Virus record (IMG/VR): IMGVR_UViG_3300017987_002823
Span: 1 to 24,931 of that record
Length of the DNA: 24,931 nt
Direction: 5' to 3' (one strand)
From: a virus
The notes under the pieces are model-generated. The model saw nothing but the letters and a program-made list of their open reading frames with translations. It ran no database searches and was not told the DNA's origin. Of this stretch, positions 1,144-22,189 are shown one piece after another. Every line of letters begins with the position of its first letter. The stretch's first letter is position 1. The translations under genes were made by a program, and so were the position numbers.

Positions 1144-2922
1144 TTATCTCCTCATACCACCAAACAACCATCCATAGTCTTCATAATCCTTTTTTGTATA
1201 ACCATCAATACGTCTATGATGGTTTTGATTGTTCGGCATAACAGGTAAACCTGGATTAAAATCTCTTGTCGCATTTTTAACAGGAGTTTCATTAACCATC
1301 CAACTTTCCATCATTGCCTTGGTTTGTTCTGTAACTTTTTCAAGTTGTGTAAATGAATTTTCACCAACATAAATCGCCATGGCCATAGCCATTATAAGGT
1401 CATCATGTTGTCCCTTAATATGGTCAGGTCTTCCGTTTATATATACAAATGTATTTAATTCGTTTATCAAACGAGAAGAACGAACGATAAAGTTATGTCT
1501 TAATGCTTCTTCAAAAGATGCAACGATTTGAACACGTTTTGAATTAAAATTCAATCCTGGTATCTTTTCTATTGTTTTTGGATTGTATTTCCATTTGTCT
1601 GCTGCGTTTATACCATCAACATACAAATCCTTATAATTCATTTCCTGAAGTTTACGAGCGGTAGAAACCCCCATACCTCCAGTGATATCAATCACAATAA
1701 AAGCGGAATACATGGTTGCCCATTTAAACGCAACCTCAGCAGCGACATCAGGTGGTATCTTACCCAAATATTCTAATACCTGTTCCCGTTCGTCAAAGTC
1801 TATAATACAGAATGTGGTAAAGTCTTCACTATCACCACGAGAAACATCAATACCCATAATATATTTGTGACCCACCACAGGTTCTTTCCATTGCCATAAC
1901 GCACCCCCCATAAATTTGTTTTCAGGTTCACGAATAAAGTTTTCCTTAATTTTTTCTACCGTATCAGAAGGAATAACATTATCACCTGAACCTAAGAAGT
2001 TACACTCCAATTCCTGAGCAATCTTACGCCTGTCAAACTTAAGTTTTTTACTCATACCTTCAAACCATGTGGAGTATGGTTTGTATCCGTCCAAGAAATG
2101 TGTTTTAATTTCGTCAAAATCCCGTTTCATCGGGTCAACCATAGAGTAGTCCAAAGTTATTTCTTCGTCCTTATAATCCTCTCTGTTTAACATATAATGA
2201 ACGATATCATTACATTTAATCAGTTTCAAATCTTTTGCATAACGAGGGTCACGATACCAATACATCTCGGTAATCTTAAAGTCGTTCATACCTCGTAACG
2301 ACTGGTCATAGATAGAATAATATATGGGGTCAAAACCGTTGGGGGTAGAAATTACAATAACTTTACCACCTGTAGAAAGTGATGCCATACATGCAGACCA
2401 AAAATCGTTATCTGCTTCAATAAACGCGGCCTCATCAAATACAAGTATCGTGGGGGTATATCCACGAAGGGCGTCCTTAGATGTTGCAACCGCTTTTACC
2501 TCACATCCGTTGGTTAACTTATAGTGCCGTTGTGAGTTCTTTTCATTAGAAAAGTTAACACCAAACCATGACGGCCATTGTTCAATAAACGCTCTTATCT
2601 TACTTGCCATCTCCACAGAGGTGTCAAGTTTGTTGGCGATGATAAGGATTTTTTCAGGTTTTGATTTGGATGCGGTAACAAGTTTTTTGGATATCCATGC
2701 CGAAGTTACTGTTGATACACCTGCCTGACGGTATTTAAGTGCGATATTTTCTTCGTGAGTATCGTAGTCTTTTATTAAACTTTCTTGGTCAGGAAACAAC
2801 TCCAAAGGAACATACTTAGACTGAGTATTATCGTATGTTTGTAGATATGTCTTTAACGCATACGAGGTGTCTTTTACACACCTCGCATACTCTAATAATA
2901 CTTTCTCTTTTGTTAACGCCAT
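1144..2922 (-). CDS. Terminase large subunit, T4 gp17-like
   Basis: A 592-aa packaging motor with both expected halves. The ATPase half shows a Walker A-type loop (YRQAGVST, 64-71), Walker B with catalytic Glu (ILVFDEAAF, 159-167) and a coupling motif (ISTPNG, 191-196). The RNase H-like nuclease half shows the acidic residues expected for headful cutting: GIDVSRGDSED (D359), the strand VIDITGGMG (D412) and HDDL (D507/D508). Length matches the family (about 550-610 aa). The protein would cut concatemeric DNA and drive it through the portal encoded 43 bp downstream. The P-loop is the variant form typical of phage terminases rather than the canonical GxxGxGKT, so this is not a defect. The gene sits in a run of co-oriented virion genes, 29 bp after the upstream one. 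Confidence 0.97.
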   Translation of the reverse strand: MALTKEKVLLEYARCVKDTSYALKTYLQTYDNTQSKYVPLELFPDQESLIKDYDTHEENIALKYRQAGVSTVTSAWISKKLVTASKSKPEKILIIANKLDTSVEMASKIRAFIEQWPSWFGVNFSNEKNSQRHYKLTNGCEVKAVATSKDALRGYTPTILVFDEAAFIEADNDFWSACMASLSTGGKVIVISTPNGFDPIYYSIYDQSLRGMNDFKITEMYWYRDPRYAKDLKLIKCNDIVHYMLNREDYKDEEITLDYSMVDPMKRDFDEIKTHFLDGYKPYSTWFEGMSKKLKFDRRKIAQELECNFLGSGDNVIPSDTVEKIKENFIREPENKFMGGALWQWKEPVVGHKYIMGIDVSRGDSEDFTTFCIIDFDEREQVLEYLGKIPPDVAAEVAFKWATMYSAFIVIDITGGMGVSTARKLQEMNYKDLYVDGINAADKWKYNPKTIEKIPGLNFNSKRVQIVASFEEALRHNFIVRSSRLINELNTFVYINGRPDHIKGQHDDLIMAMAMAIYVGENSFTQLEKVTEQTKAMMESWMVNETPVKNATRDFNPGLPVMPNNQNHHRRIDGYTKKDYEDYGWLFGGMRR

Positions 2923-8029: not shown

Positions 8030-8273
8030 TTTCTAATTTCTTATAAATATACTTTTTAGCAATCTCTTTACTAAAATAACTACCCTGAGATTCCGCCATT
8101 CTAAACTTGGTGTAGATAGAATGAGGAACTTCTTCATATTCATACTGTGCACCGTTTTTAAAAGTTGCAATCAACTTTTTTGTGGAAGTATCATATTCAG
8201 TTTTCTGAACTGTCGATGACTCAATCTCACAGATTATCTTCTTACCTATTATTCTTTCTGATTTTATACTCAT
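8010..8273 (-). CDS. KTSC domain protein
   Basis: 87 aa, nearly all one KTSC domain. Key features are SSTVQKTEYDTSTKKLIATF (19-38), GAQYEYEEVPHSIYTKF (41-57) and the end AESQGSYFSKEIAKKY, matching the family pattern of S-S-x-I...Y-D...L-x-V-x-F...G...Y-x-Y-x-x-V-P...A...S-x-G-x-Y-F. The domain is named after a similar part of some lysyl-tRNA synthetases; its biochemical role is not established and it is frequent in phages. The start overlaps the stop of the upstream gene by one nucleotide (TAATG), indicating translational coupling. It overlaps the downstream nucleotidyltransferase by 20 nt. Confidence 0.9.
   Translation of the reverse strand: MSIKSERIIGKKIICEIESSTVQKTEYDTSTKKLIATFKNGAQYEYEEVPHSIYTKFRMAESQGSYFSKEIAKKYIYKKLEIDGEGK
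8043..8049 (-). promoter_or_regulatory. TATTTAT motif before nucleotidyltransferase gene (candidate late promoter)
   Basis: Minus-strand TATTTAT lies inside the end of the KTSC gene, 13 nt before the ATG at 8029, the same spacing as at other unit starts. It could let the nucleotidyltransferase be transcribed separately from the KTSC gene. As it is within coding sequence it could also be chance. Confidence 0.35.
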
Positions 8274-9070
8274 TATACACCTACTGTTATTTCTTTTTTA
8301 CTATTACCTAAATTAAGAAATCTAGGAGTGATGCTCACTATTTTTAACCTATTATCATCATTAGTTGATGCCAAAGTTACATCTGTTTTCGTTGTTGTGG
8401 TACTCCCGTCATCATTATTGGTGACTTTAGTTTCAGGTGATGTTGGTCCCTCTATATCTTTTATTTTATTACTTCTGGCAATAGTATCAGATTGAGATGA
8501 ATTAACTCCAATACCATAGTAGAACCTTACACCATCGATATCAAAATACCCGTTTCTGGTATTAGCGGTTAAAGTATCAAAGTCAACTGCATAACTTTTA
8601 TCATTATATTCTATTGTGAAATTTTGAGGTTTTGATGACGTATCTGATTTATCACCTTCACCGAAAAATGACTCAGGTATTTCTTCGTTTGGTATTTTGT
8701 AAGTTGCAATATTATTTTTTGTCCCTTGGTAATAATCTGGTTTATTTGGGTCGTTTAGTAACTTACTCAACCCTAAATTTTCTAAGGCAATATTTAAATT
8801 AAAATGTCCGTTTACTGCGCCTTTAGTGTCATAGTAAAATTCGGTGTGATTAGAACCTCTTTTATAGGTAATATCTATAGTTTCACCATTAGGTCTTTCA
8901 TATGATAATTCACCCTCTTCGGACGAATTATTAAACAAATTCTTTACGAATTCTTTACCCTTATTGAAACCCTGTCTTATAGCAGTTCCGAGTTGCTCAT
9001 CAACCTCAGATTCATTCAAACCCATAAGTTCACGATTTCTTTTTACTTCATTTAAAATCTTTTTATTCAT
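8273..9070 (-). CDS. Uncharacterised protein with capsid-targeting-like N-terminus
   Basis: 265 aa from the ATG at 9070. A longer reading from 9121 would run through the terminator hairpin at 9106-9130 and the TATTTAT motif, so the shorter start is preferred. The protein begins MNKKILNEVKRNRELMGLNE, nearly the same as the start of the 484-aa protein at 14780-16234 (MKRNILNEVNRMREIMGL). The segment ending in LNE fits the (L/I)xE cleavage rule of the T4 prohead protease gp21. The rest is polar and beta-rich (for example the YYDTKGAVNGHFNLN stretch) with a Thr/Ser/Asp linker near the C-terminus; no family is recognised. An internal head protein is a reasonable hypothesis. Confidence 0.82.
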   Translation of the reverse strand: MNKKILNEVKRNRELMGLNESEVDEQLGTAIRQGFNKGKEFVKNLFNNSSEEGELSYERPNGETIDITYKRGSNHTEFYYDTKGAVNGHFNLNIALENLGLSKLLNDPNKPDYYQGTKNNIATYKIPNEEIPESFFGEGDKSDTSSKPQNFTIEYNDKSYAVDFDTLTANTRNGYFDIDGVRFYYGIGVNSSQSDTIARSNKIKDIEGPTSPETKVTNNDDGSTTTTKTDVTLASTNDDNRLKIVSITPRFLNLGNSKKEITVGV

Positions 9071-9083
9071 AATAGTTTTTACT

Positions 9084-9090
9084 ATAAATA
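9084..9090 (-). promoter_or_regulatory. TATTTAT motif before the 265-aa gene (candidate late promoter)
   Basis: Minus-strand GTATTTATAGT lies 13 nt before the ATG at 9070 and just downstream of the terminator of the UVR-motif gene, exactly where a new transcription unit would need a promoter. Confidence 0.5.
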
Positions 9091-9105
9091 CTATAATAAA
9101 CAAAA

Positions 9106-9130
9106 AACCCCTCACTTTCAATGAGGGGTT
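9106..9130 (-). terminator. Intrinsic terminator after the UVR-motif gene
   Basis: Perfect 9-bp stem AACCCCTCA/TGAGGGGTT with a 7-nt loop, followed on the minus strand by TTTTTTG. It lies 6 nt past the stop codon of the gene at 9136-9579. There is also a T run on the plus side, but no plus-strand gene needs it. Confidence 0.9.
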
Positions 9131-9135
9131 GTTTT

Positions 9136-9579
9136 TTACGACTTCAACTTATTCAGTTTGTCTCGTAGTTTGATTGCGGATTCAAAATCTTGTTTGTTTA
9201 CCGCTTCGTCTAATTTTAATTGGATTTCATCAATCTTTTCTTTATTAGACTCAATATTTTTGATTTGGTCTCTTAGTTTAGCGGCTGTTTCATAATCCTG
9301 TTTTTCAACAGCATTTTTTAATTCACGTTCTAACACACTAATTTCATTTGATTTTTCTTTTGGTGTGTTTCCGTTATAACGGTATATAGATGTAATTTGA
9401 TATGTTCCATCATCTGATGTAAAGGTTTCTTTTGTCCAAGTACCATCTTCATCATCACCTGATTCTACATTCTTTTTACCTCTAACCATTAATGGATTAG
9501 AACCATAAGAGTTAAATCCGTCAAATAATGAGTCAAACTCAGAAAACAAGTCGTTAAAATTAAATCTTCTACGTAACAT
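9136..9579 (-). CDS. UVR-motif protein, possible Clp partner (McsA-like C-terminus)
   Basis: 147 aa. The N-terminal half (MLRRRFNFNDLFSEFDSLFD, then a Gly/Asp-rich section GDDEDGTWTKETFTSDDGTY) is unrecognised. The C-terminal half holds two UVR motifs: LERELKNAVEKQDYETAAKL (83-102, continuing RDQIK) and LKLDEAVNKQDFESAIKLRD (121-140). UVR motifs occur in UvrB/UvrC, in the middle region of ClpC-type unfoldases and in the ClpC regulator McsA, and mediate protein-protein contacts. The divergent neighbour is a ClpC-like unfoldase with the same motif ([10 protein letters not shown]), so an adaptor or regulator of that unfoldase is the natural guess. No zinc-finger cysteines like those of McsA are present. 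The gene is a single unit with its own terminator. Confidence 0.87.
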   Translation of the reverse strand: MLRRRFNFNDLFSEFDSLFDGFNSYGSNPLMVRGKKNVESGDDEDGTWTKETFTSDDGTYQITSIYRYNGNTPKEKSNEISVLERELKNAVEKQDYETAAKLRDQIKNIESNKEKIDEIQLKLDEAVNKQDFESAIKLRDKLNKLKS

Positions 9580-9761: not shown

Positions 9762-11786
9762 ATGATAGAATCAGTAGACCCAAATGAAAAAAGTGGTGGA
9801 GGAAAGAAAAAAGAATCAAGTAATTCAAGAACTCCTGTTCTTGATAACTTCTCTCGTGATTTAATTAAACTTGCGTCAGAAGGTAGGTTAGACCCCGTTA
9901 TCGGTAGAGATGACGAAATAAAAAGAATTGCACAAGTTCTTTCTCGTAGAAAGAAAAATAATCCTATTATTATAGGTGAACCTGGATGTGGAAAAACAGC
10001 AATAGTTGAAGGACTCGCTATGAAAATATTTGAGGGTGACTGTCCTCAAAATCTGTGTGATAAACGAATTGTATCGTTGGAGATGACTTCAATTGTTGCG
10101 GGAACAAAATATCGTGGACAATTTGAAGAGCGTATGAAAGTTATTTTGGACGAACTTCAAGATAATCATGATATTATCGTGTTTATTGATGAAATCCATA
10201 CCATTATTGGTGCAGGTAATTCATCGGGTTCATTGGATGCGTCCAATATCTTTAAACCCGCGCTTGCTCGTGGTGAGCTACAATGTATCGGAGCAACCAC
10301 TCTTGACGAATATCGAGAGAATATTGAAAAAGATGGTGCTTTAGAACGTAGATTCCAAAAGGTAATGGTTGACGGTTCAAGTCCTGAAGAGACTTTGGAA
10401 ATTTTAAAAAACCTTAAAGAACGTTATGAAGACCACCATAAAGTAAATTATTCCGATGAGTCATTAGAAGCTTGTGTTACTTTGGCAGATAGGTACGTTA
10501 CGGATAGAGAGTTTCCTGATAAGGCAATTGATATTATGGACGAGGTAGGTGCTCGTGCACAAATTAATGTAAAACTTCCTGAAATTATTGAAGAGTTGAG
10601 ACAAGAGGCAAACCTCATAAAAGAACAAAAATTACAAGTAGTTAAAAGTCAAAAATATGAGGAAGCGGCACAACTTAGAGATAAGGAGCGTAAACTTATT
10701 GAAAAACTTGAATCGGAAAAGATAAAGTTTGAAAAAGAAAAAAATACCAAAAGGAAGGACATTACAGAAGATATGGTTTTTGAAGTTGTATCACTTATGA
10801 CTAAAATTCCTTTATCACGTCTTACCACTGATGATAAAGAATCATTACTTGATTTGGAAACCAATCTCAACAGTTCGGTAATCGGTCAAGAAGACGCAGT
10901 AAAGACTATTTCAAAAGCCATCAGAAGAAACCGAGTGGGAATTAAGGACCCAAATCGTCCAATCGGTTCATTTATTTTCTTAGGTTCAACAGGTATCGGT
11001 AAGACTCACTTAGCCAAACAACTGGCAAAAGAAATTTTTGGTGATGAAGATGCATTAATCAGGGTTGATATGTCGGAATACCAAGAAAAGTTCTCAATGA
11101 GTCGTTTAATTGGTTCACCTCCAGGTTATGTAGGATATGAAAAAGGAGGTCAACTTACTGAAGCGGTTAAAAACAAACCATATTCTGTGGTATTGTTTGA
11201 TGAGATTGAAAAAGCAAACAAAGACATTTTTTCACTTCTTCTTCAAATGATGGACGATGGTCACCTAACAGATTCTTTTGGTAGAAAGATTAACTTTAGA
11301 AACTGTCTGATTATTATGACCTCAAACTTGGGTGTTAAAAAACTTCAAGATTTTGGTACAGGATTAGGATTTGATACCAAATCAAGTATGTCCAATAACG
11401 AGGAGATGAAGAAGGCTCTTTTACAAAAGGAATTAAAAAACCATTTTACTCCTGAGTTTTTGAATCGTGTTGATGAAGTGGTTGTATTTAATCCACTTCG
11501 TGAAAATGAGGTTGAAAAAATCGTTGAGATTGAATTACTTAAATTAGAAAAACGTTTGGTTAAGATGGGGTACAAAATTACGATTGACCCCAAAGTCAAA
11601 AAGTTCTTGTCCGAAGTAGGATTTGATGAAAAATATGGTGCCCGTCCTATCAAACGAGCAATTCAAGAAAAAATTGAAGACCTTATTTCTGAAGAAGTTT
11701 TGAAAGGTAATATCGTAGAGGGTAAACCTTGTAAACTTAGGATGAAAGGAACTGAAGAAGTTGTTTTATCAAAAGGGAGAAGTTAA
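9762..11786 (+). CDS. clpC: ClpC-like AAA+ unfoldase lacking the N-terminal domain
   Basis: 674 aa with two AAA+ modules. D1 has Walker A GEPGCGKT (72-79), Walker [10 protein letters not shown] (138-146), pore-loop Tyr in KYRGQFEER (Y117) and Arg fingers R196/R197. A short middle part has a UVR-type motif ([17 protein letters not shown], 295-311) as in ClpC, not the long coiled coil of ClpB. D2 has Walker A GSTGIGKT (408-415), pore loop GYVGYE (455-460), Walker [10 protein letters not shown] (476-484) and [17 protein letters not shown] (532-537) sits where ClpC carries its VGF ClpP-docking tripeptide, so docking to a host ClpP is plausible. Typical ClpC has about 810-850 aa; the paired N-terminal repeats that bind adaptors are absent, replaced by about 22 polar residues before [11 protein letters not shown]. 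The gene ends in its own terminator. Symbol given by similarity. Confidence 0.95.
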
Positions 11787-11831: not shown

Positions 11832-11850
11832 TATACAAATCAATAAACAA

Positions 11851-12933
11851 ATGAATAACGCTCAACTTACTCGTCTCAAAGAAGTACTCTCAGTACCTAC
11901 CAAAACTTATAAGGAAGATGGTATGGTTGAATTTATCTGTAAAACTCTTGATAATATCGATGAGGTCAGTTATTATACTGATGAGATGAACAATGTGTAT
12001 GCTACTAAGGGTCATCTACCCGAAGGTCAGTATTATCCAATGTTCATCGCTCATACTGACACAGTTCATGAGTTGGTTGAGCAGATTGTTGTTGAAGAAG
12101 AGATGCTCGAAAAACCCCCTACCTTTGGTCGAACGTTTACAGAAGAACTTTACTTGAGTTTGAAAGGTTACACTCCACAGGGAGTTCCAACGGGAATCGG
12201 TGGTGATGATAAATGTGGGGTTTTTCTTGCTCTCGAACTCCTTCGTTCTCTTGAGTTTGTTAAGGTAGGACTTTTCGTATCTGAAGAAACGGGATGTCAT
12301 GGTTCTCGTGAATGTGATGTTGAGTTCCTCAAAGACGTGGGTTACGCTGTTCAGTTTGACGCACCTGGTAATCACTTGGTTACCGAAGTATGTTCAGGTA
12401 TCCGTTTGTACGAGCAAGGTGGTGAGTTCATCAATCGCATTCTTCCTGTGTTTGAGGAGACTATGGGAGTCTCGGCGTACCAACAGTCACATCCTTATAC
12501 TGATGTTTCTCAGGTTAAACTAAAGGGTGACTTCTCTTGTATCAACTTCTCTTGTGGTTACTACAACATGCACACCGCAAATGAGTTTGTTGTGATTGAT
12601 GATGTGGAAGACTCGTTTAACCTTGCTATGGGTATCGTTAAGGAACTCGGTTGTAACAAGTTTGGTTATGTCTATGAACGACCGACTTATCAACACTACA
12701 GTCAAGGTAATTTGTTTGACACCAATTACGACGATGATGATTTGTATGATGATGATTACGAATACAAGTCATCCGAATGGGACGAAAGTAAAAATCACTA
12801 CTTTCACATTGAAGAGGACAGTATTGAAATTGAGTCCAAAGAAACTGGTGATGTAATTAAGTTGGACATGCAAGATATGGCTAGTCTTTACCTACTTATC
12901 CGAGAGCGTTTGTTGGAAAACGAGGAGATTTAA
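11851..12933 (+). CDS. M20-family metallopeptidase (peptidase T-like)
   Basis: 360 aa from the ATG at 11851; an in-frame extension to 11761 would run through the ClpC terminator and this gene's promoter, so it is rejected. All metal-site residues of the M20 fold are visible: AHTDTVH (H68, D70), GIGGDDKCG (bridging D119 or D120), SEETG (catalytic E145, metal E146), FDAPG (D170) and YYNMHTANE (H241). This is the set for a two-zinc aminopeptidase or related amidohydrolase. The C-terminal about 80 residues are acidic (NYDDDDLYDDDYE) and not part of the usual core. Next to a Clp unfoldase, trimming of Clp-derived peptides for amino-acid recycling is an attractive role, but substrate is unknown. 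Codons more often end in C than in neighbouring genes. Its stop overlaps the convergent gene by 4 nt. Confidence 0.92.
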   Translation: MNNAQLTRLKEVLSVPTKTYKEDGMVEFICKTLDNIDEVSYYTDEMNNVYATKGHLPEGQYYPMFIAHTDTVHELVEQIVVEEEMLEKPPTFGRTFTEELYLSLKGYTPQGVPTGIGGDDKCGVFLALELLRSLEFVKVGLFVSEETGCHGSRECDVEFLKDVGYAVQFDAPGNHLVTEVCSGIRLYEQGGEFINRILPVFEETMGVSAYQQSHPYTDVSQVKLKGDFSCINFSCGYYNMHTANEFVVIDDVEDSFNLAMGIVKELGCNKFGYVYERPTYQHYSQGNLFDTNYDDDDLYDDDYEYKSSEWDESKNHYFHIEEDSIEIESKETGDVIKLDMQDMASLYLLIRERLLENEEI

Positions 12934-14780
12934 AAAAGGTCAAAAAGTGTGTAGTTGGTTAACAGTTTAATTATTGTTTCCAACTTCGCACTTCCTTTTT
13001 TTTCTTCGTCATCCTTAACTAATGTGAATTTAACTTTATTTGTTTTTGGGTCCACACCGTTAAACAATATCATAGTCTCTTCGTCCGCACTTTTTATTTT
13101 GTGGGGGGTATTAAAACCAAATTTGTTTTCAATATAGTTACTAATTCTTTTGTATTGTTTTGAATCCAATACCAAACTATCATCTGACTCAACTCTATCC
13201 AATTCTTTTTCTAACGCCTTTTCCATATCATTATCGAAATAATGTCTAAACTCATCTTCATCACGATATACATCGGACATTTCATAAGGGTATTCATTTA
13301 ATTCTAAATTACCTAAAACTTGGTTTTCTAATACCTGTTCTATTGGGAAGTTTTTGTTTGATTCCAAATCGTCTTCATAAAACTCCAATAACTTGTCTAC
13401 CGATATTTCATATTGCTCAAAACAATCTGAGTCTTCCATCTTTTTTAAACCGATGTCTTCATATATGTCACATATATCACTTTCTAAATAATCAAGAAAA
13501 CCTCTATGTGTTGCCCTGTCTTCAGCCTCACTATATGCGTAACTAAATGATACATATAAGTCAGGTAAATTATCCTTTATAAAATCTGCAACTTTTTCTA
13601 AATCATCCCTTTTTATATCATTACCTTCAAAACTTGATAATAACTGTGGCTCTAATATTTCAATAATCGCCTTTAATGTATCTATTTGTTCTGATGTTAA
13701 AGAATATAATGGATATCCTTCTGACATATCATCATCAAACTTACTTGTGTCGTAAAAGAAATCTCCGTTTGGGTTCTGATACATCCAGTTATAATAACCT
13801 AATGCGTCATCTCCAACCTCATCTCTAAAGAAACCTAAGTAGGACTCAATCTCACCTTTAAAGTTAAACACTGCCTTATCACCAATAAACCTATCAAAAT
13901 AATCCGAATTCAAAGCTTCGTACATTCCGAGTTTAGGGTTTTGTTTTACCTTCTTTAATGTTTCGTAATCATCAGATTTATTAATTAACTCAAGAATTTT
14001 TTCTTTAATCGGTTCAAATCTCTCCAATAAGAAATTTAATGTCTCTCCTTGGTCTTGTTGGTTATATATCTCATAAGCACCTTTTCCGTGAGGAACAAGT
14101 AATGCCATTTTACCATAAGTACGGTTGTTTGATTTTTTATCTAAGATATAATATAACTTACCTCGTGATGTGTATTTGTTAAAGTAATCGTCGTTATCTT
14201 TTGTTGTAGTACACCATGTCGTGTTAGCACCATAATAACAAGATGACTTATGTGATAAAGGTCTAATAATTAAAAATCTATCATCTTCGTATATTCTTTC
14301 AGATTCTTTTTTAATTTGTTTTTCGTCATCAGCAACTTTTAAAAATTCATCGTATTGTTCGATAAAATAAAGTAAATCCTGTATGGTATCAAAAGAGTTG
14401 ATGTCTTTTGGTTTTGACTTTATCTTGTTTTCGGTTTCTTCACTTGAAAAGTGTCCCTCCAACTCCAAAAAATTAAACATCTTTTCAACTTTTTCAGGTG
14501 ATAACTGTTCAACGATATCATGATACATTTTAGCTCTTGTCCACGCGGTACTAGCAATTGTAATTGGTGGTCGGCTTTCAAAATTCCACGTAGGATTTTT
14601 AACTGTGTCTATAAACTTTTTAATACCCCACTCTGAATACTTCTTAGTAACACTAGGGTCATTATCTATAATTTTTTCTGCAAGTGATATTGCATCATCA
14701 GACAGACCCTCAAGTTGTGGTCTGAACTTATCTATAAGTCGTTCTTTTTTACCTTCGTTAAGTATCTGTATGATATTCAT
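12930..14780 (-). CDS. Large uncharacterised protein with WCTT motif and capsid-targeting-like N-terminus
   Basis: 616 aa from the ATG at 14780, which overlaps the upstream stop by one base (TAATG); this start is preferred to one 18 nt further up. The N-terminus MNIIQILNE|GKKER fits the short capsid-targeting pattern ending in LxE. A conserved-looking core at about residues 165-235 contains RPLSHKSSCYYGANTTWCTT, then YFNKYTSRGKLYYILDK and KMALLV. I recall similar 'YG..T.WC' blocks in other T4-like phage proteins, but without a known function. The remaining two thirds are acidic and helical with several Asp/Glu/Tyr-rich stretches. The gene converges on the M20 gene with a 4-nt tail-to-tail overlap and no terminator between them. 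Confidence 0.85.
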   Translation of the reverse strand: MNIIQILNEGKKERLIDKFRPQLEGLSDDAISLAEKIIDNDPSVTKKYSEWGIKKFIDTVKNPTWNFESRPPITIASTAWTRAKMYHDIVEQLSPEKVEKMFNFLELEGHFSSEETENKIKSKPKDINSFDTIQDLLYFIEQYDEFLKVADDEKQIKKESERIYEDDRFLIIRPLSHKSSCYYGANTTWCTTTKDNDDYFNKYTSRGKLYYILDKKSNNRTYGKMALLVPHGKGAYEIYNQQDQGETLNFLLERFEPIKEKILELINKSDDYETLKKVKQNPKLGMYEALNSDYFDRFIGDKAVFNFKGEIESYLGFFRDEVGDDALGYYNWMYQNPNGDFFYDTSKFDDDMSEGYPLYSLTSEQIDTLKAIIEILEPQLLSSFEGNDIKRDDLEKVADFIKDNLPDLYVSFSYAYSEAEDRATHRGFLDYLESDICDIYEDIGLKKMEDSDCFEQYEISVDKLLEFYEDDLESNKNFPIEQVLENQVLGNLELNEYPYEMSDVYRDEDEFRHYFDNDMEKALEKELDRVESDDSLVLDSKQYKRISNYIENKFGFNTPHKIKSADEETMILFNGVDPKTNKVKFTLVKDDEEKKGSAKLETIIKLLTNYTLFDLF

Positions 14781-16234
14781 TAGTCGTATGCTGCACAAGG
14801 AATACCTCCACTACCCTTAAATATATTACCTCCACCTTCTTTAATTCTCCTAATTATTATCCTATTTCTTCCTCCACCGTCACCACCGGTTTTACTAATT
14901 ATTTTTATACCCCACTCACCAAGTGTTGATGGTGGTTTTATAGACGGACCTTCCGGTTCGTCATAATTAAACTCTATGGCTAATTGTACTATACAAAACT
15001 TATATTGTTCATATTCATTAGATGACGTATGTGGTTCCATATTATTAAATGTTCTTTCTCCACTATCTTTAAATGAATTTGGTTCACCTCCTTCCATAGA
15101 AAATTTATTTGGTGATGGTGGATTTGGACCTGATGAACCGTCACCATTTCTACCGTCTGAATTTAAAATCACTTTGGCATTACCAATATCAGTAACTACA
15201 GAAGATAATTGATTTACAATGTAATCGTATACACTTTGTGCCCTCGCTTCTGATAACTGTTTAAAACTCATTTGTTCAGCTTGACCTGTGTTTCTATATC
15301 TCGATGCTGAAGTCCAAATAGTAAATGGATAGTTCTGTACTGAACCATCCACAGTTACTTTATTAGCAACTGAAACTCTACCTCCTGGGTAAGTCTTTTT
15401 AAATAGGTTAATATTTTGTATGACCTCATTAACCCAATCAATTACACCTTGACCAACTTGTGTTGAGTTATTTGGGAATGGTTCACCTTGAGTGGTTGGG
15501 TTTATGTTGGATTGAAACCTAACCGCCGGCATTGGTTCACCTTCAGTCCCTTCTTTGGTTTGTAAAGAACCTGGATTTAATTTTATTTTGTCAATATTTT
15601 TTCTACATTCACCCCAATCAGGACTGTTAGTATCATTTTTTTCAGGATATTTTTTGGTACACCATTCAGTAAAGTATTGTATAAAACCATCTTTAACTTC
15701 TTCTGTCATAGGTGGTACTTCCGCTCCTGATTGTCTTTTTTGTGAACCTGTAACTCTTTCACCAGCCTTATAGTCACCACTACTACAAGTTTTTAATGCG
15801 GATTCGTTGTAATCAGGATTTATAGAATCGTCACCTAAAGGGAAACCTGTTTTAGGTTGACCTAGTCTGTCTCCGTTTTGGTCTTCAATATTCCTTAATT
15901 CTTTAGAAGATGACCTGTATTGACTATCATCATTAAAATAACCTTTAGGTATATAGTTATAACTTGAATAAAAATATTGTCCTTCAACTCCTCTTTTACT
16001 TGTTACACTTTCGGGTAATTTATCTGATTTTAATTCACTTATTGGGAATCTATACTTAAAATAATATTTAGGACTACATACGAAGTCAGAACCCGCACTT
16101 TCCCAATATATTTTACTCTTTTCGTCTAAGAGACTAATAAATAATCTTTCACGAGTATCTGTTTGTTCTAATATGGTATTTAACCCCATGATTTCTCTCA
16201 TACGGTTAACTTCGTTTAAAATATTTCTCTTCAT
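14780..16234 (-). CDS. Uncharacterised protein with capsid-targeting-like N-terminus and weak OmpA-like segment
   Basis: 484 aa from the ATG at 16234 (MKRNILNEVNRMREIMGL); a longer reading to 16279 would cross both divergent promoters and is rejected. The N-terminal 18 residues closely match those of the protein at 8273-9070. The middle is polar, with Cys residues (FVCSPKYYFK, KTCSSGDY, WCTKKYPEK, GECRKN). Around residues 340-390, FKQLSEARAQSVYDYIVNQL resembles the 'LS..RA..V..YL' helix of OmpA-type peptidoglycan-binding domains, with NSDGRNGDG after it. This match is weak. The C-terminus is Gly-rich (GGDGGGRNRI). It is translationally coupled (TAATG) to the 616-aa gene. An internal or tail-associated virion protein is likely but unproven. 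Confidence 0.83.
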   Translation of the reverse strand: MKRNILNEVNRMREIMGLNTILEQTDTRERLFISLLDEKSKIYWESAGSDFVCSPKYYFKYRFPISELKSDKLPESVTSKRGVEGQYFYSSYNYIPKGYFNDDSQYRSSSKELRNIEDQNGDRLGQPKTGFPLGDDSINPDYNESALKTCSSGDYKAGERVTGSQKRQSGAEVPPMTEEVKDGFIQYFTEWCTKKYPEKNDTNSPDWGECRKNIDKIKLNPGSLQTKEGTEGEPMPAVRFQSNINPTTQGEPFPNNSTQVGQGVIDWVNEVIQNINLFKKTYPGGRVSVANKVTVDGSVQNYPFTIWTSASRYRNTGQAEQMSFKQLSEARAQSVYDYIVNQLSSVVTDIGNAKVILNSDGRNGDGSSGPNPPSPNKFSMEGGEPNSFKDSGERTFNNMEPHTSSNEYEQYKFCIVQLAIEFNYDEPEGPSIKPPSTLGEWGIKIISKTGGDGGGRNRIIIRRIKEGGGNIFKGSGGIPCAAYD

Positions 16235-16248
16235 TAGATATTTTTTTA

Positions 16249-16255
16249 ATAAATA
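16249..16255 (-). promoter_or_regulatory. TATTTAT motif before the 484-aa gene (candidate late promoter)
   Basis: Minus-strand CTATTTATT lies 14 nt before the ATG at 16234. It directly abuts the -33 box of the divergent CAP-gene promoter, leaving the two starts only 58 nt apart. Confidence 0.5.
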
Positions 16256-16256
16256 G

Positions 16257-16287
16257 TTTGTGTAAATAAAAAATAACACTATATTTG
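16257..16287 (+). promoter_or_regulatory. Bacteroidota-type promoter of the CAP-domain gene
   Basis: TTTG at 16257-16260, 19 nt, TATATTTG at 16280-16287, then only 5 nt to the ATG at 16293. The transcript would be leaderless or nearly so. Confidence 0.8.
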
Positions 16288-16292
16288 TAATT

Positions 16293-16856
16293 ATGAAATA
16301 CTTTATTACCCATATCTTAATTTGTCTTAGTTTAATTGTTCAAGCACAAACATTTACGTGGAACCCGCAACAATGTTATAAAATAGTTGGAAATGATACG
16401 ATGCTAGTGGACTGTGATTTTGCTTGGCCAACCCCCGTATTTAATGGTAATGTTGACTCTTTATGTCTTGAAATGGAGAAACGATTTGTTGAGACTTTAA
16501 ATGAGTGGAGACGAAATCATGGAATTCATGAATTGGAATATGACTATGATATGCAATCATTATTGACTGTACCATGGAATGAAAGTCAAGTACAATCAGG
16601 TAAGATTAGTCACGGTGAAGGTTATAACAGTTTTAAAAATAGAAGTAATAGAGCTGGTATTCGTGGTTGTGGTGAGTGTTGTGCCCATAATAGTAGGTCT
16701 GATGTGGGTGATACTTCACAATTTTTTATTCAGTATAAGGACAGTCCTCAACACTGGAAAATTCTAACCAGTGATGATTACAACTACATTGCGGTATCGG
16801 TACTATACGACAAAGAAAAAAATCGGTATTATTCAGTTGTAAATGTTAGAATGTAA
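16293..16856 (+). CDS. Secreted CAP-domain (SCP/PR-1-like) protein
   Basis: 187 aa. Residues 1-19 form a signal peptide (MKYFITHILICLSLIVQAQ) with likely cleavage near QA|Q, so the mature protein would be exported by Sec. The mature part shows CAP-family hallmarks: an early helix with LNEWRRNHGIHELEYD, a histidine in KISHGEGYN, the strand IRGCGECCAHNSR, the helix QFFIQYKDSPQHWKILTS, and a final strand pair YIAVSVLYDKE and YYSVVNVRM. The usual metal-site histidines and glutamate appear present. Bacterial CAP proteins of this YkwD-like type are secreted and poorly understood; a phage copy could act on the envelope or at the cell surface. It is a single gene with a host-type promoter and no clear terminator before the tmRNA promoter. 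Function beyond the fold is open. Confidence 0.85.
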   Translation: MKYFITHILICLSLIVQAQTFTWNPQQCYKIVGNDTMLVDCDFAWPTPVFNGNVDSLCLEMEKRFVETLNEWRRNHGIHELEYDYDMQSLLTVPWNESQVQSGKISHGEGYNSFKNRSNRAGIRGCGECCAHNSRSDVGDTSQFFIQYKDSPQHWKILTSDDYNYIAVSVLYDKEKNRYYSVVNVRM

Positions 16857-16907: not shown

Positions 16908-17292
16908 GGGGGCGTTTTTGGATTTGACTGGTACAGTCAGGCACAGAGTGCATGTAGTGAGAGGATACCTATCACTTTAATACACGGTTTCAAAACACAA
17001 ACGGCGAAACTATCGCAAAACTTCAGGCTGTCGGTTTGGTCCGCACTGAAGAGGTTTACGCAGCCTAAGGCTCCGTCTACCGCGGGTCGGTCAGGACATA
17101 TACCTATGAACAGAAGTCCGTTGTTGTGGTGGAGAAGTGACTAAACCCTAAATTGAGTCACACATCTATTGTTAGTGAAGGATGCAAAAATTCAACTTTC
17201 TATTTCGGGGCATTGTGAATAATGTCGTCCTAAACATGTAGTACTCTCTGTTTGGGGTATGCAGGACCTGGGTTCGACTCCCAGCGCTTCCA
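16908..17292 (+). ncRNA. ssrA: tmRNA (transfer-messenger RNA)
   Basis: The 5' end GGGGGCG (16908-16914), followed by TTTTTGGATTTGACTGG, pairs with CGCTTCC (17285-17291) as the acceptor stem, with two G-U pairs. A T-arm CTGGG-TTCGACT-CCCAG precedes it, and A17292 is the discriminator. The next bases are CAA, so the 3' CCA is not encoded and must be added. The tag frame ends GTT TAC GCA GCC TAA (stop 17066-17068). The likely resume codon is GGC at 17003, as in Bacteroidota tags that begin GE. The 21-residue tag would start GETIAKLQAV and end RTEEVYAA, much longer than the usual host tag (about 9 residues) and ending YAA rather than LAA. It would rescue stalled ribosomes together with SmpB, which is not in this window. 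Some other phages also carry tmRNA genes. Confidence 0.95.
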
Positions 17293-17298
17293 CAAAAA

Positions 17299-19102: not shown

Positions 19103-22100
19103 ATGTATTGGTCTCTTAATTCGGGAGCACCTATTTGGAACATCGACTACAGTCAGAACGTAAACCAACCACCTATAGGTCCTGGTGAGACCCGTACTAT
19201 AAAGACACCATGGTTTGATATTCCAAACTTACCGTCATGGTTTCCTGACGACCCCACCACCGCTCAGCCGTGGGAAGAGTCCATGGAATGGCCATATTAT
19301 AACCTATCTTTCCCTTTCCAAGGTTCTTGGTCTCCAATGAACTTAAGATTGGGTAGTTGTGGTTTGGGTGACGGTGCATGGATATATGACTCAAATGGTG
19401 AATTATATTATGGACCTTTTGATACCGATTGTCCTGATGTTAACAATGATGCAATGTGTGATTGTGACATTGAGATAACAAGTTTTGACCCCGTATCTTT
19501 GGATATTGAGGTTGAGGTTGTTAGTCATTGGAACTGTGGTCAACCTTTAAATGGTTTGGGTAATTTTGGTTCATCTAATAATGATGCTGTGGATATGATA
19601 CATTTCGGTATTCATGTACCGGGATGGGATTATCAATGGGGTTGTACTACAGGAAATAACCATCCAGGTTGGTCTTTTGGTGGTTGGACCGCGTTAAATA
19701 ACCCAAACTTATTTTTGTATTCTGGTGACATATATCAAGGAAACCTAAATGACCTATCTTTAAATGGTTGTTTTGGTGAAATTTTAAGTAGTGATACCAT
19801 AAGTGAATGTAAAGAAATTGTGTTATGGCAAATAAACTATTCTCAAACATTAAATGTTGCGGATGGTGGATGGGCAGTATTTCCAAATTCAGGTAATGAG
19901 ACACAAGAATACCCTGATTTTAGTATCATAGATAACAGTATTTTAATTTGTGGTATTCCTGATGTAAATGGTTGTACAGACCCCGTAGCGTCAAACTACA
20001 ATCCAAATGCAAATGTGGATGACGGTTCTTGTGAATACCTTTATCCTGACGCAAATCCTGGTGTTAATTTAAATAGTACAACTTGTTTAGATGGTACACC
20101 TGCTAACATATACAATATTACAATATATAATCCAGGTGATGATACATTATTTTACTATTGTGTTGAAATACCTGAATTAAATTATGATGAGTGTTTTGAT
20201 GGTTATCAGACTGGTCAATATTGGATTGAACCAGGTGCTGGTCAAACAATTACACAAGTCACAATACCTGAAGGTATTGAACAGATAACCATAAATGTAT
20301 ATGAATCTGAAGGTGAAGTAGAAGGGACATTTTCTGATAATATTGAAGTATTTCCTATAGTATTTAACGGTCCTGACCCATGTCCAATACCAGGTTGTAC
20401 CGACCCAAATGCTAACAATTATAACCCTGATGCAAACGAAGAAGACGGTAGTTGTACATACGACGAACTAACTTTAGACTTAGGTGGAGATATCATATGG
20501 ACCCCTCAGGGTACTTGTGTGAACCCATTCTATAATCAATCATTTGTTGTTAACAACACAGGTGAAGGTGTTATAAATAACTTTAGTTTAGAGGTTGTCG
20601 TAGAGACATGGGATGGAAACCCCGTATTTCAAGGTACACAGGATTATAATGTATCTATAGACCCTAACGGTAGTTATACGGTGTCTGACTTCCCTGATGT
20701 ATTTACAGGGGATTTAAACTATGTTTCTGCAACTCTAACATGGGTAAATGAGTTAGGTAATATAGAAACCGATACACAATCATTTAATTTGATATTGTAT
20801 TGTTGGGGATGTACTGACCCTGAAGCTAATAACTATACTGAAAGTGAGTATATCTTTGACGAGGTACAAACTCATTGGTTAACGGCCTTCCCAAACATTC
20901 AACCCCCTTCTCCTGAACAGGTAGAATGTACTTATGATATTACAGAATTAGATTACTTAGGTGCAGAATGTACAGTATATTGTGATGAGAACGGACCTTA
21001 CTATTATGTTACCACCACATTCCAAAATACAGGTAATGTTACGATTACTGACTTTTGTGCTGAATGGAATGTAATAGGAGGACAAGAAGATATTCAATGT
21101 TTTAATGGTACATTAGAACCAGGTGAAACTATTGAATTGGTTCACGGTCCTATATATGTTAATGGTACTGGTGTTGTTTGGGTATATCTACAGGAATTAA
21201 ATGGTGTTGTATTAGACCCCGAAATAGGATTTTATGAAAATCTAACCTGTAATTTAAATGCTGAAGAAGTATGTGATTATGGTTGTACTGATAATACCGC
21301 CAATAACTATAACCCTGACGCGGATTTAGATGACGGTAGTTGTACTTATGATGTTTTAGGATGTACAGACCCTGAGGCCAATAACTATAATCCTAACGCT
21401 AACGTAGATGACGGTAGTTGTGAATTCTTAGGATGTACAGACCCAATAGCGTTAAACTATGACCCGAACGCAACCATAGACGATGGTTCTTGTAATTACA
21501 TCTATGGATGTACAGACCCCGAAGCGGATAACTATTGGCCCGATGCAACTATGGACGATGGTAGTTGTATATACTTAGGATGTACAGACCCAAATGCTAA
21601 CAACTATGACCCTGACGCGACAGTGGATGACGATAGTTGTGTATATGATGTATTAGGGTGTACAGACCCTGAAGCTAATAACTATAATCCTAACGCAAAT
21701 ATAGATGACGGTAGTTGTACTTATGATGTTTTAGGTTGTACAGACCCTAACGCTTTTAATTACAATCCACTCGCGACTGTAGATGATGGTAGTTGTATTT
21801 ATTTAGTATATGGTTGTACAGATATGGATGCTTTAAACTACAACCCATCCGCTAGCATAGATGATGGAACTTGTATTTATCCAGGTCCTTGTGATGAGTT
21901 TGACGGTAGTGCATTCGCACCAAACGCATTTACACCAAATAACGATGGTTTAAATGACGCATGGAGAGTGATAACGGAAGTTGAATGTTGGAACAAGTGG
22001 GAGTTACTTATCTATAACAGGTGGGGTCAAGTAGTCTATGAAATGGATGACCCTTCACAAGTATGGGATGGTAGTTTTAGAGGTGGTGACCACTATGTTT

Positions 22101-22189
22101 CAGACGGAGTATATGCTTATACACTCAGAGCTGTGGCATGGAATTTGGAAACAATAGAACTAACAGGTTTTATAACCGTTCTAAGATAA
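19103..22189 (+). CDS. Giant repeat protein with T9SS type B C-terminal sorting domain
   Basis: 1028 codons from the ATG at 19103; this frame is open from 19004, so the start is probably artificial and the true N-terminus is the signal peptide at 18903 in another frame. Parts in order: an N-terminal aromatic-rich domain; then immunoglobulin- or CARDB-like beta domains separated by GCTDP...DDGSC repeats (single copies from 19970, 20393 and 20807); an array of eight such repeats (21281-21882); and a C-terminal domain from about 21898 with APNAFTPNNDGLNDAWRV, LLIYNRWGQVVYEM, VWDGSFRGG and a terminal ITVLR. That last domain matches the gliding-motility/T9SS type B sorting domain of Bacteroidota. 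The repeats have paired cysteines and Asp-rich turns, suggesting disulfide and possibly calcium binding. It could be a surface protein exported by the host T9SS or a virion adhesin. A terminator follows 22 nt after the stop. Confidence 0.9.
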   Translation: MYWSLNSGAPIWNIDYSQNVNQPPIGPGETRTIKTPWFDIPNLPSWFPDDPTTAQPWEESMEWPYYNLSFPFQGSWSPMNLRLGSCGLGDGAWIYDSNGELYYGPFDTDCPDVNNDAMCDCDIEITSFDPVSLDIEVEVVSHWNCGQPLNGLGNFGSSNNDAVDMIHFGIHVPGWDYQWGCTTGNNHPGWSFGGWTALNNPNLFLYSGDIYQGNLNDLSLNGCFGEILSSDTISECKEIVLWQINYSQTLNVADGGWAVFPNSGNETQEYPDFSIIDNSILICGIPDVNGCTDPVASNYNPNANVDDGSCEYLYPDANPGVNLNSTTCLDGTPANIYNITIYNPGDDTLFYYCVEIPELNYDECFDGYQTGQYWIEPGAGQTITQVTIPEGIEQITINVYESEGEVEGTFSDNIEVFPIVFNGPDPCPIPGCTDPNANNYNPDANEEDGSCTYDELTLDLGGDIIWTPQGTCVNPFYNQSFVVNNTGEGVINNFSLEVVVETWDGNPVFQGTQDYNVSIDPNGSYTVSDFPDVFTGDLNYVSATLTWVNELGNIETDTQSFNLILYCWGCTDPEANNYTESEYIFDEVQTHWLTAFPNIQPPSPEQVECTYDITELDYLGAECTVYCDENGPYYYVTTTFQNTGNVTITDFCAEWNVIGGQEDIQCFNGTLEPGETIELVHGPIYVNGTGVVWVYLQELNGVVLDPEIGFYENLTCNLNAEEVCDYGCTDNTANNYNPDADLDDGSCTYDVLGCTDPEANNYNPNANVDDGSCEFLGCTDPIALNYDPNATIDDGSCNYIYGCTDPEADNYWPDATMDDGSCIYLGCTDPNANNYDPDATVDDDSCVYDVLGCTDPEANNYNPNANIDDGSCTYDVLGCTDPNAFNYNPLATVDDGSCIYLVYGCTDMDALNYNPSASIDDGTCIYPGPCDEFDGSAFAPNAFTPNNDGLNDAWRVITEVECWNKWELLIYNRWGQVVYEMDDPSQVWDGSFRGGDHYVSDGVYAYTLRAVAWNLETIELTGFITVLR
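21281..21882 (+). repeat. Eight tandem GCTDP...DDGSC protein repeats
   Basis: The array codes eight units of about 22-26 residues, each starting GCTD and ending DDGSC or a close variant (one DDDSC, one DDGTC). Three earlier copies stand alone at about 19970, 20393 and 20807, the third degenerate. DNA copies differ at many third positions, so the array is not a very recent expansion. Confidence 0.93.

Follow-up and report, generated by a model that had tools for sequence, protein, structure and literature searches.

Which peptide a phage-encoded tmRNA appends to stalled products, and what that peptide serves for, are the questions raised by this locus. The window, by which we mean the whole stretch of 24,931 bases analyzed, is an IMG/VR virus record that carries a T4-type terminase large subunit and is therefore a fragment of a tailed phage. 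Its initial annotation described a tmRNA with an expanded tag ending in VYAA, treated that tag as a peculiarity of this phage, and suggested that the altered peptide could change which host protease sees tagged proteins, possibly to the advantage of the phage's own unfoldase. Our results bear on what the tags of phage tmRNAs serve for. The RNA itself is a plain tmRNA; what is probably new is a lineage-wide type of tag together with a probable private protease.

The tmRNA gene and its resume codon

ARAGORN identifies a single tmRNA in the window, at 16908-17293 on the plus strand, and the Rfam model RF00023 matches 16908-17295 along its entire length (model positions 1-374 of 374), with 96.1 bits against a gathering threshold of 47 and an E value of 1e-36. 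Both agree with the initial annotation, whose tag frame at 17003-17068 proved exact. The mature ends were taken from the acceptor stem, which makes 17292 the discriminator A; CCA is not encoded at the 3' end, where CAA comes next. The features on which this part of the argument depends are as follows.

1144..2922, minus strand: terminase large subunit, T4-type, marking the element as a tailed phage
16908..17292, plus strand: tmRNA (ssrA) gene, from ARAGORN, Rfam RF00023, covariation in relatives and acceptor stem analysis
16908..16914, plus strand: 5' strand of the acceptor stem, GGGGGCG, with a G3-U70-type pair to 17285-17291, from the sequence
16999, plus strand: A at -4 of the resume codon, the equivalent of E. 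coli A86, from its invariance in phage and Bacteroidota tmRNAs
17003..17068, plus strand: tag reading frame with its stop, encoding GETIAKLQAVGLVRTEEVYAA, from ARAGORN, relatives and the selection test
17285..17291, plus strand: 3' strand of the acceptor stem, CGCTTCC, from the sequence and acceptor stem analysis

The tRNA-like domain of the window RNA has the G-U pair and the T-arm of a tmRNA. A G-U at pair 3-70 is the alanine identity mark of tmRNAs, and it is kept in 52 of 53 relatives. In a 20-sequence alignment of phage tmRNAs, compensatory changes occur at 32 of 50 predicted base pairs, a count that covers the predicted pairs of the aligned RNAs with the pseudoknots not separated. Folding of the single sequence gave a z score of -1.5, and a nucleotide search against named phages returned nothing beyond T-arm or chance matches. 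Judged from its sequence, the window RNA is a genuine, intact and ordinary member of the tmRNA family. Among the phage tmRNAs, blocks in the pseudoknot region look swapped (L060, L062, L065, L086 and L113 versus others; alignment columns ~236-350), as if tmRNA modules recombine.

Whether the tag is long depends on where translation resumes. In E. coli, A86, four bases 5' of the resume codon, sets the tag frame (PMC2481249). The corresponding A is invariant, being present in all 63 distinct phage tmRNAs and all 40 chromosomal tmRNAs of Bacteroidota, and the distance from the 5' end to the resume codon is ~90-98 nucleotides in phages and 93-101 in hosts. Conservation of the tag at the amino acid level is seen in this register only, which in the window runs to a TAA stop at 17066-17068, and near the resume site no other start with an A at -4 yields a short LAA-like tag. 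These comparisons indicate that the resume codon is fixed by the invariant A at -4, so that alignment with host and phage tmRNAs upholds the codon initially chosen. ARAGORN does call shorter tags, or miss the gene, in some relatives, as might be expected were the resume codon misplaced and the true tag short and ordinary. Such a tag is nonetheless ruled out by the A at -4, the host-like 5' distance, the in-frame selection described below, and the lack of an alternative start, and we assign a misplaced codon next to no probability.

The tag across the phage lineage and its hosts

Relatives of the window were gathered from IMG/VR by searches with the downstream gene and the ClpC-like ATPase, giving 120 viral loci, some of which share one contig and which include short fragments. 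A tmRNA nucleotide profile finds the gene in 90 of the 120, and ARAGORN misses or misreads many. Sixty-three distinct tag-coding sequences resulted, 52 encoding 21 residues and 11 encoding 22, with a consensus of roughly G[NED][VT][LIF]xK[ML]xx[VIL]GL[ILVT][RK]xExVxVA. Every one of the 52 tags of 21 residues has Gly11-Leu12 and 51 have a final Ala, and conserved hydrophobic positions alternate along the peptide (3-4, 7, 10, 12-13, 18 and 20). The end is -VA in 47 of the 63, mostly as -TVA, -AVA or -VVA across the lineage. The -YAA end is found in 4 of the 63 distinct tags, the window's included, and these form a small subclade of the window's close relatives.

Substitution patterns point to selection on the peptide. 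When the 52 tags of 21 residues are compared in pairs, divergence at the three codon positions is 0.39, 0.25 and 0.54. The dN/dS ratio in the tag frame is 0.29-0.39 over three divergence bands versus 0.73-2.6 in the other two frames, values that are indicative because they come from simple Nei-Gojobori counts on overlapping pairs; in 90% of sequences those other frames are interrupted by stops. By this measure the tag is under purifying selection, with the peptide maintained alongside the RNA itself. A chance frame is ruled out by the 63 homologous tags and the in-frame signal, and an oddity of one contig is ruled out by the length of 21-22 residues in all 63. Comparison of the relatives thus makes the long tag a trait of a deep lineage of large phages and not, as had been supposed, of this phage. 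Relatives with a canonical tag, which would have spoken against an altered one, were looked for, and the relatives carry the same long tag.

A pattern scan of viral contigs recovered further tags of the same type and two related forms, GDVFANATVGHFVTEGATVAA and GNVFANATVGHFVTEGATVAA, in which the length is unchanged and the core replaced. The remaining tags in that scan are mostly of the ANDENYALAA type, and these are probably host genes at prophage borders. Three loci (L309, L360 and L341) likewise keep the start of the tag and its length of 21 residues around a different core (G[DN]VFANATVGHFVTEGATVAA); ClpP and a ClpC-like ATPase are both encoded in the 226-kb record from which L309 comes.

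The hosts of the lineage are probably Bacteroidota, as suggested by the GE/GN start of the tmRNA tags and by the nearest cellular ClpC proteins, which share 57-61% identity and are essentially all from Bacteroidota. Host tmRNAs were located in 46 of 50 Bacteroidota genomes, and in 40 of these a short tag could be read. Every one of the 40 chromosomal tags is 9-10 residues long and ends in LAA or MAA (e.g., GENNYALAA, GESNYAMAA and DNTSYRLAA), and the window tag, at 21 residues with a YAA end, falls outside this type. The initial claim of a long tag altered with respect to Bacteroidota is thereby borne out; GE, GN or DN starts are shared by the phage and Bacteroidota tmRNAs. The emphasis on Tyr near the end holds for the window and its close relatives; the general change is from LAA/MAA to xVA. 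In a tree built without the tag, phage and host tmRNAs lie on two sides of one branch (SH-aLRT 100). A cellular origin of this tag type was considered and rejected: a degenerate 21-residue-tag pattern, which matches 41 phage loci and whose reach excludes the 22-residue and -YAA variants, had 0 matches in genome_contigs.

Clp genes of the lineage and possible fates of tagged proteins

What might read such a tag is suggested by the genes upstream of the tmRNA.

9136..9579, minus strand: small protein carrying a pair of UVR motifs, encoded divergently from clpC (Pfam UVR, 5e-21; the UVR part is weakly similar to McsA)
9762..11786, plus strand: ClpC-like double AAA+ unfoldase of 674 residues without N-domain, with UVR-type middle domain and ClpP-docking LGF loop (Pfam/PHROG/NCBIfam, PDB ClpC homologues, loop and N-domain comparison)
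11848..12933, plus strand (ORF start at 11761 possible): M42/PepT-like metallopeptidase, directly after clpC

The unfoldase has the two AAA+ modules, UVR-type middle domain and [ILV]GF ClpP loop of ClpC, the loop being LGF in the window protein. NCBIfam ranking of ClpB versus ClpC reached no cut-off, and comparison with the PDB favors ClpC: the protein is best matched by solved ClpC structures, only from chain residue ~146-152 onward. The first AAA module is preceded by 40-74 residues in the phage ClpCs, counted from the first possible Met, versus 204-220 in Bacteroidota ClpC, and the N-terminal double-repeat domain is absent in all 79 phage ClpCs with a measurable start; because of this absence we term the protein ClpC-like. 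The [VIL]GF docking loop is present in 74 of 80 phage ClpCs.

Wherever at least 6.5 kb of downstream flank is available (45 of 45 loci), clpC is followed by the tmRNA at a distance of 2.0-6.3 kb. No relative without clpC was found in the lineage, most of whose loci were gathered by the ClpC search; ClpC and tmRNA therefore co-occur across one lineage found partly through ClpC, and shared ancestry alone could explain their linkage. The window is too short to contain clpP, which is known from relatives: of 25 partial records, 14 encode ClpP (PF00574, E values of 1e-51 to 1e-59), among them all 7 of at least 150 kb, and in those that were checked the gene and the tmRNA are tens of kilobases apart. 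The Ser-His-Asp triad spacing in all 12 relatives' ClpPs examined is 25/49, the canonical spacing, as in E. coli ClpP. SmpB was found in 2 of the 25 records (L134 and L135, contigs of 309 kb and 113 kb); unless theirs has diverged or lies in the unsequenced part, most members must therefore depend on the SmpB of the host. The M42/PepT-like peptidase is present in 103 of the 120 loci, short fragments among them, and a UVR-motif protein beside clpC was detected in 56 of the 120; the window's copy is a candidate ClpC partner or adaptor.

Other genes of the window are of separate interest. Directly 5' of the tmRNA, 16293-16856 encodes a CAP/SCP-domain protein with a signal-like N-terminus, found in close relatives only (11 of 120 loci). 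An unusual phage cargo is encoded at 19103-22189: the protein is very large, contains numerous GCTDP.A.NYNP.A..DDGSC repeats, and has at its C-terminus a sorting-like domain as in secreted Bacteroidota proteins. Several window proteins (8273-9121, 14780-16279 and 12930-14798, all on the minus strand) have an N-terminal leader like ILNEVNRMREIMGLNE, which we take to recall the T4-type propeptides or capsid-targeting leaders cut by prohead protease.

The reading that we favor, at slightly better than even chances, is that the phage tag is a degron for the phage ClpC-ClpP, as its conservation and the gene linkage suggest. During infection, the phage tmRNA would be charged with alanine and would enter stalled ribosomes with SmpB, usually the host's and sometimes the phage's, and the lineage-specific peptide of 21-22 residues would take the place of the host tag, which has 9-10 residues and ends in LAA or MAA. 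The N-domain-less ClpC of the phage would read this tag and hand substrates on to the phage ClpP. A machine under phage control would in this way degrade the tagged products and recycle their amino acids, presumably to the benefit of the phage. Loss of the ClpC N-domain is not a bar in principle, as M. tuberculosis ClpC1 lacking its NTD still unfolds an SsrA-tagged protein (PMC6274998). The gene content is compatible with the initial suggestion that the tag might favor an unfoldase of the phage, since the lineage encodes both its own ClpC-like unfoldase and ClpP.

Our estimate is held near even by the shared ancestry mentioned above, by a counter-case and by possible tolerance in the host. In the crAss-like phage cr130_1 (L276, NC_055901.1), an annotated tmRNA at 1439-1829, called as permuted by ARAGORN, has the tag DNYNVVDYTHVA with a non-LAA end, and neither ClpP nor a ClpB/C-type ATPase was found in its 95-kb record, which counts against a ClpC-ClpP degron. 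In addition, host ClpX of Bacteroidota might tolerate -VA or -YAA ends. Bacterial tags often vary in length and end, with ...AVAA in Caulobacter and ...LVAA in cyanobacteria. Given such variation, the tag could still be a degron for host ClpXP or ClpCP whose divergence reflects nothing more than the age of the phage tmRNA and the tolerance of the proteases for many hydrophobic ends; the phage Clp proteins would then have other roles, for instance in capsid maturation, host takeover or the stress response. The phage end does stay hydrophobic, with Ala last in nearly all tags, and the reliance of most members on host SmpB is in keeping with a host route. We nevertheless consider host degradation unlikely, as amino acid constraint extends to K[ML]xx[VIL]GL in the tag body, far from the C-terminus, which would not be expected were a short hydrophobic end all that counted, and as all 40 host tags keep the LAA/MAA that nearly all phage tags avoid.

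The conserved alternation of hydrophobic positions would also suit binding by a separate adaptor that delivers tagged proteins to ClpC or elsewhere, a part that the UVR protein divergent from clpC, for example, might play. ClpC family members classically use adaptors, and the UVR protein is encoded at nearly half of the loci, as counted above; many loci that keep the tag have no detected UVR protein, though fast divergence could hide it, and we find adaptor binding distinctly unlikely as the role of the tag body. A contrasting proposal is that the tag was chosen against quick degradation, with the phage tmRNA only freeing ribosomes and competing with host tmRNA, so that tagged products escape host ClpXP. 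In its favor, the C-terminal LAA/MAA read by ClpX in characterized bacteria is missing in most members, and for phage growth in published assays ribosome release needs no function of the tag peptide (PMC2481249). Escape predicts loose conservation of the peptide, however, and constraint is seen along most of the tag's length; the same phages, moreover, retain an unfoldase and ClpP. We therefore judge it quite unlikely.

Returning to a degron for ClpC-ClpP, a broader proposal may be put forward more tentatively, as possible but short of even odds: a largely self-contained pathway from trans-translation to proteolysis, in which the phage would bring its own tmRNA with a private degron of 21-22 residues, its own N-domain-less ClpC and ClpP, sometimes SmpB, and an adjacent M42/PepT-like peptidase. 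Such a pathway would be orthogonal to the host SsrA-ClpXP and would turn stalled proteins into a phage-controlled supply of amino acids. The phage lineage has swapped its hosts' tag for a different peptide, kept under selection, with matching protease genes. If the pairing is true, it would constitute a new degron/protease pair and a case of a virus re-routing host ribosome quality control to its own protease.

Relation to other phage tmRNAs and to known tag and protease systems

Compared with Bacteroidota tmRNA (RF00023), the phage RNA shares its architecture, the A at -4, the G-U alanine-identity pair, the resume-codon distance and the GE/GN/DN start, and differs in its tag of 21-22 residues, whose core is conserved and whose end is mostly -VA, and in its separate branch of the tree. 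The protease components resemble the ClpC/ClpP of cells (S. aureus 6em8; B. subtilis ClpC 3j3s/7abr) in their two AAA+ modules, middle domain, ClpP loop and ClpP triad; unlike S. aureus and B. subtilis ClpC, all phage ClpCs measured have lost the N-domain.

Phage-encoded tmRNAs as such have precedents. They have already been listed in mycobacteriophages Bxz1, Catera, Wildcat and others and in Bacillus phage G (PMC4131195), and huge phages with tmRNA and SmpB are known (PMC7162821). The likeness to our lineage lies in a phage-encoded tmRNA, sometimes with SmpB; the available portions of these papers do not describe a conserved long tag that spans a lineage and is linked to ClpC and ClpP. The Sinorhizobium jumbo phage AP-J-162 has been annotated with a tmRNA and Clp-type genes (PMC11242549), an annotation only, with the tag and any tie to the Clp genes undiscussed in the available part of that report. 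The open-licence literature gave no account of an altered tag that is shared across a lineage and linked to ClpC and ClpP, which is weak evidence of absence. Among individual genomes, no tmRNA above the cut-off was found in the huge phages LR745206 and LR756502 (ClpC 56-57%), and none was found in Flavobacterium phage immuto. The 484-kb uncultured phage LR756508.1 (L220) has a tmRNA at 1501-1944 with a possible tag of more than 30 residues, GVNNADYESAGFTAEDFAQMDGESLYHGSERKPAAV, where ARAGORN's own tag call looks wrong; a ClpC-like ATPase is also present in that record.

Among cellular systems, the SsrA tag of Mesoplasma florum is unusually long. It is read by that organism's Lon and is largely orthogonal to E. 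coli proteases (PMC9097571). Our lineage differs from M. florum in that the tag belongs to a phage and not a cell, the candidate protease is ClpC-ClpP and not Lon, and the tags have no obvious similarity. What the two would have in common, if our best reading is right, is a long, lineage-specific tag joined to a particular protease.
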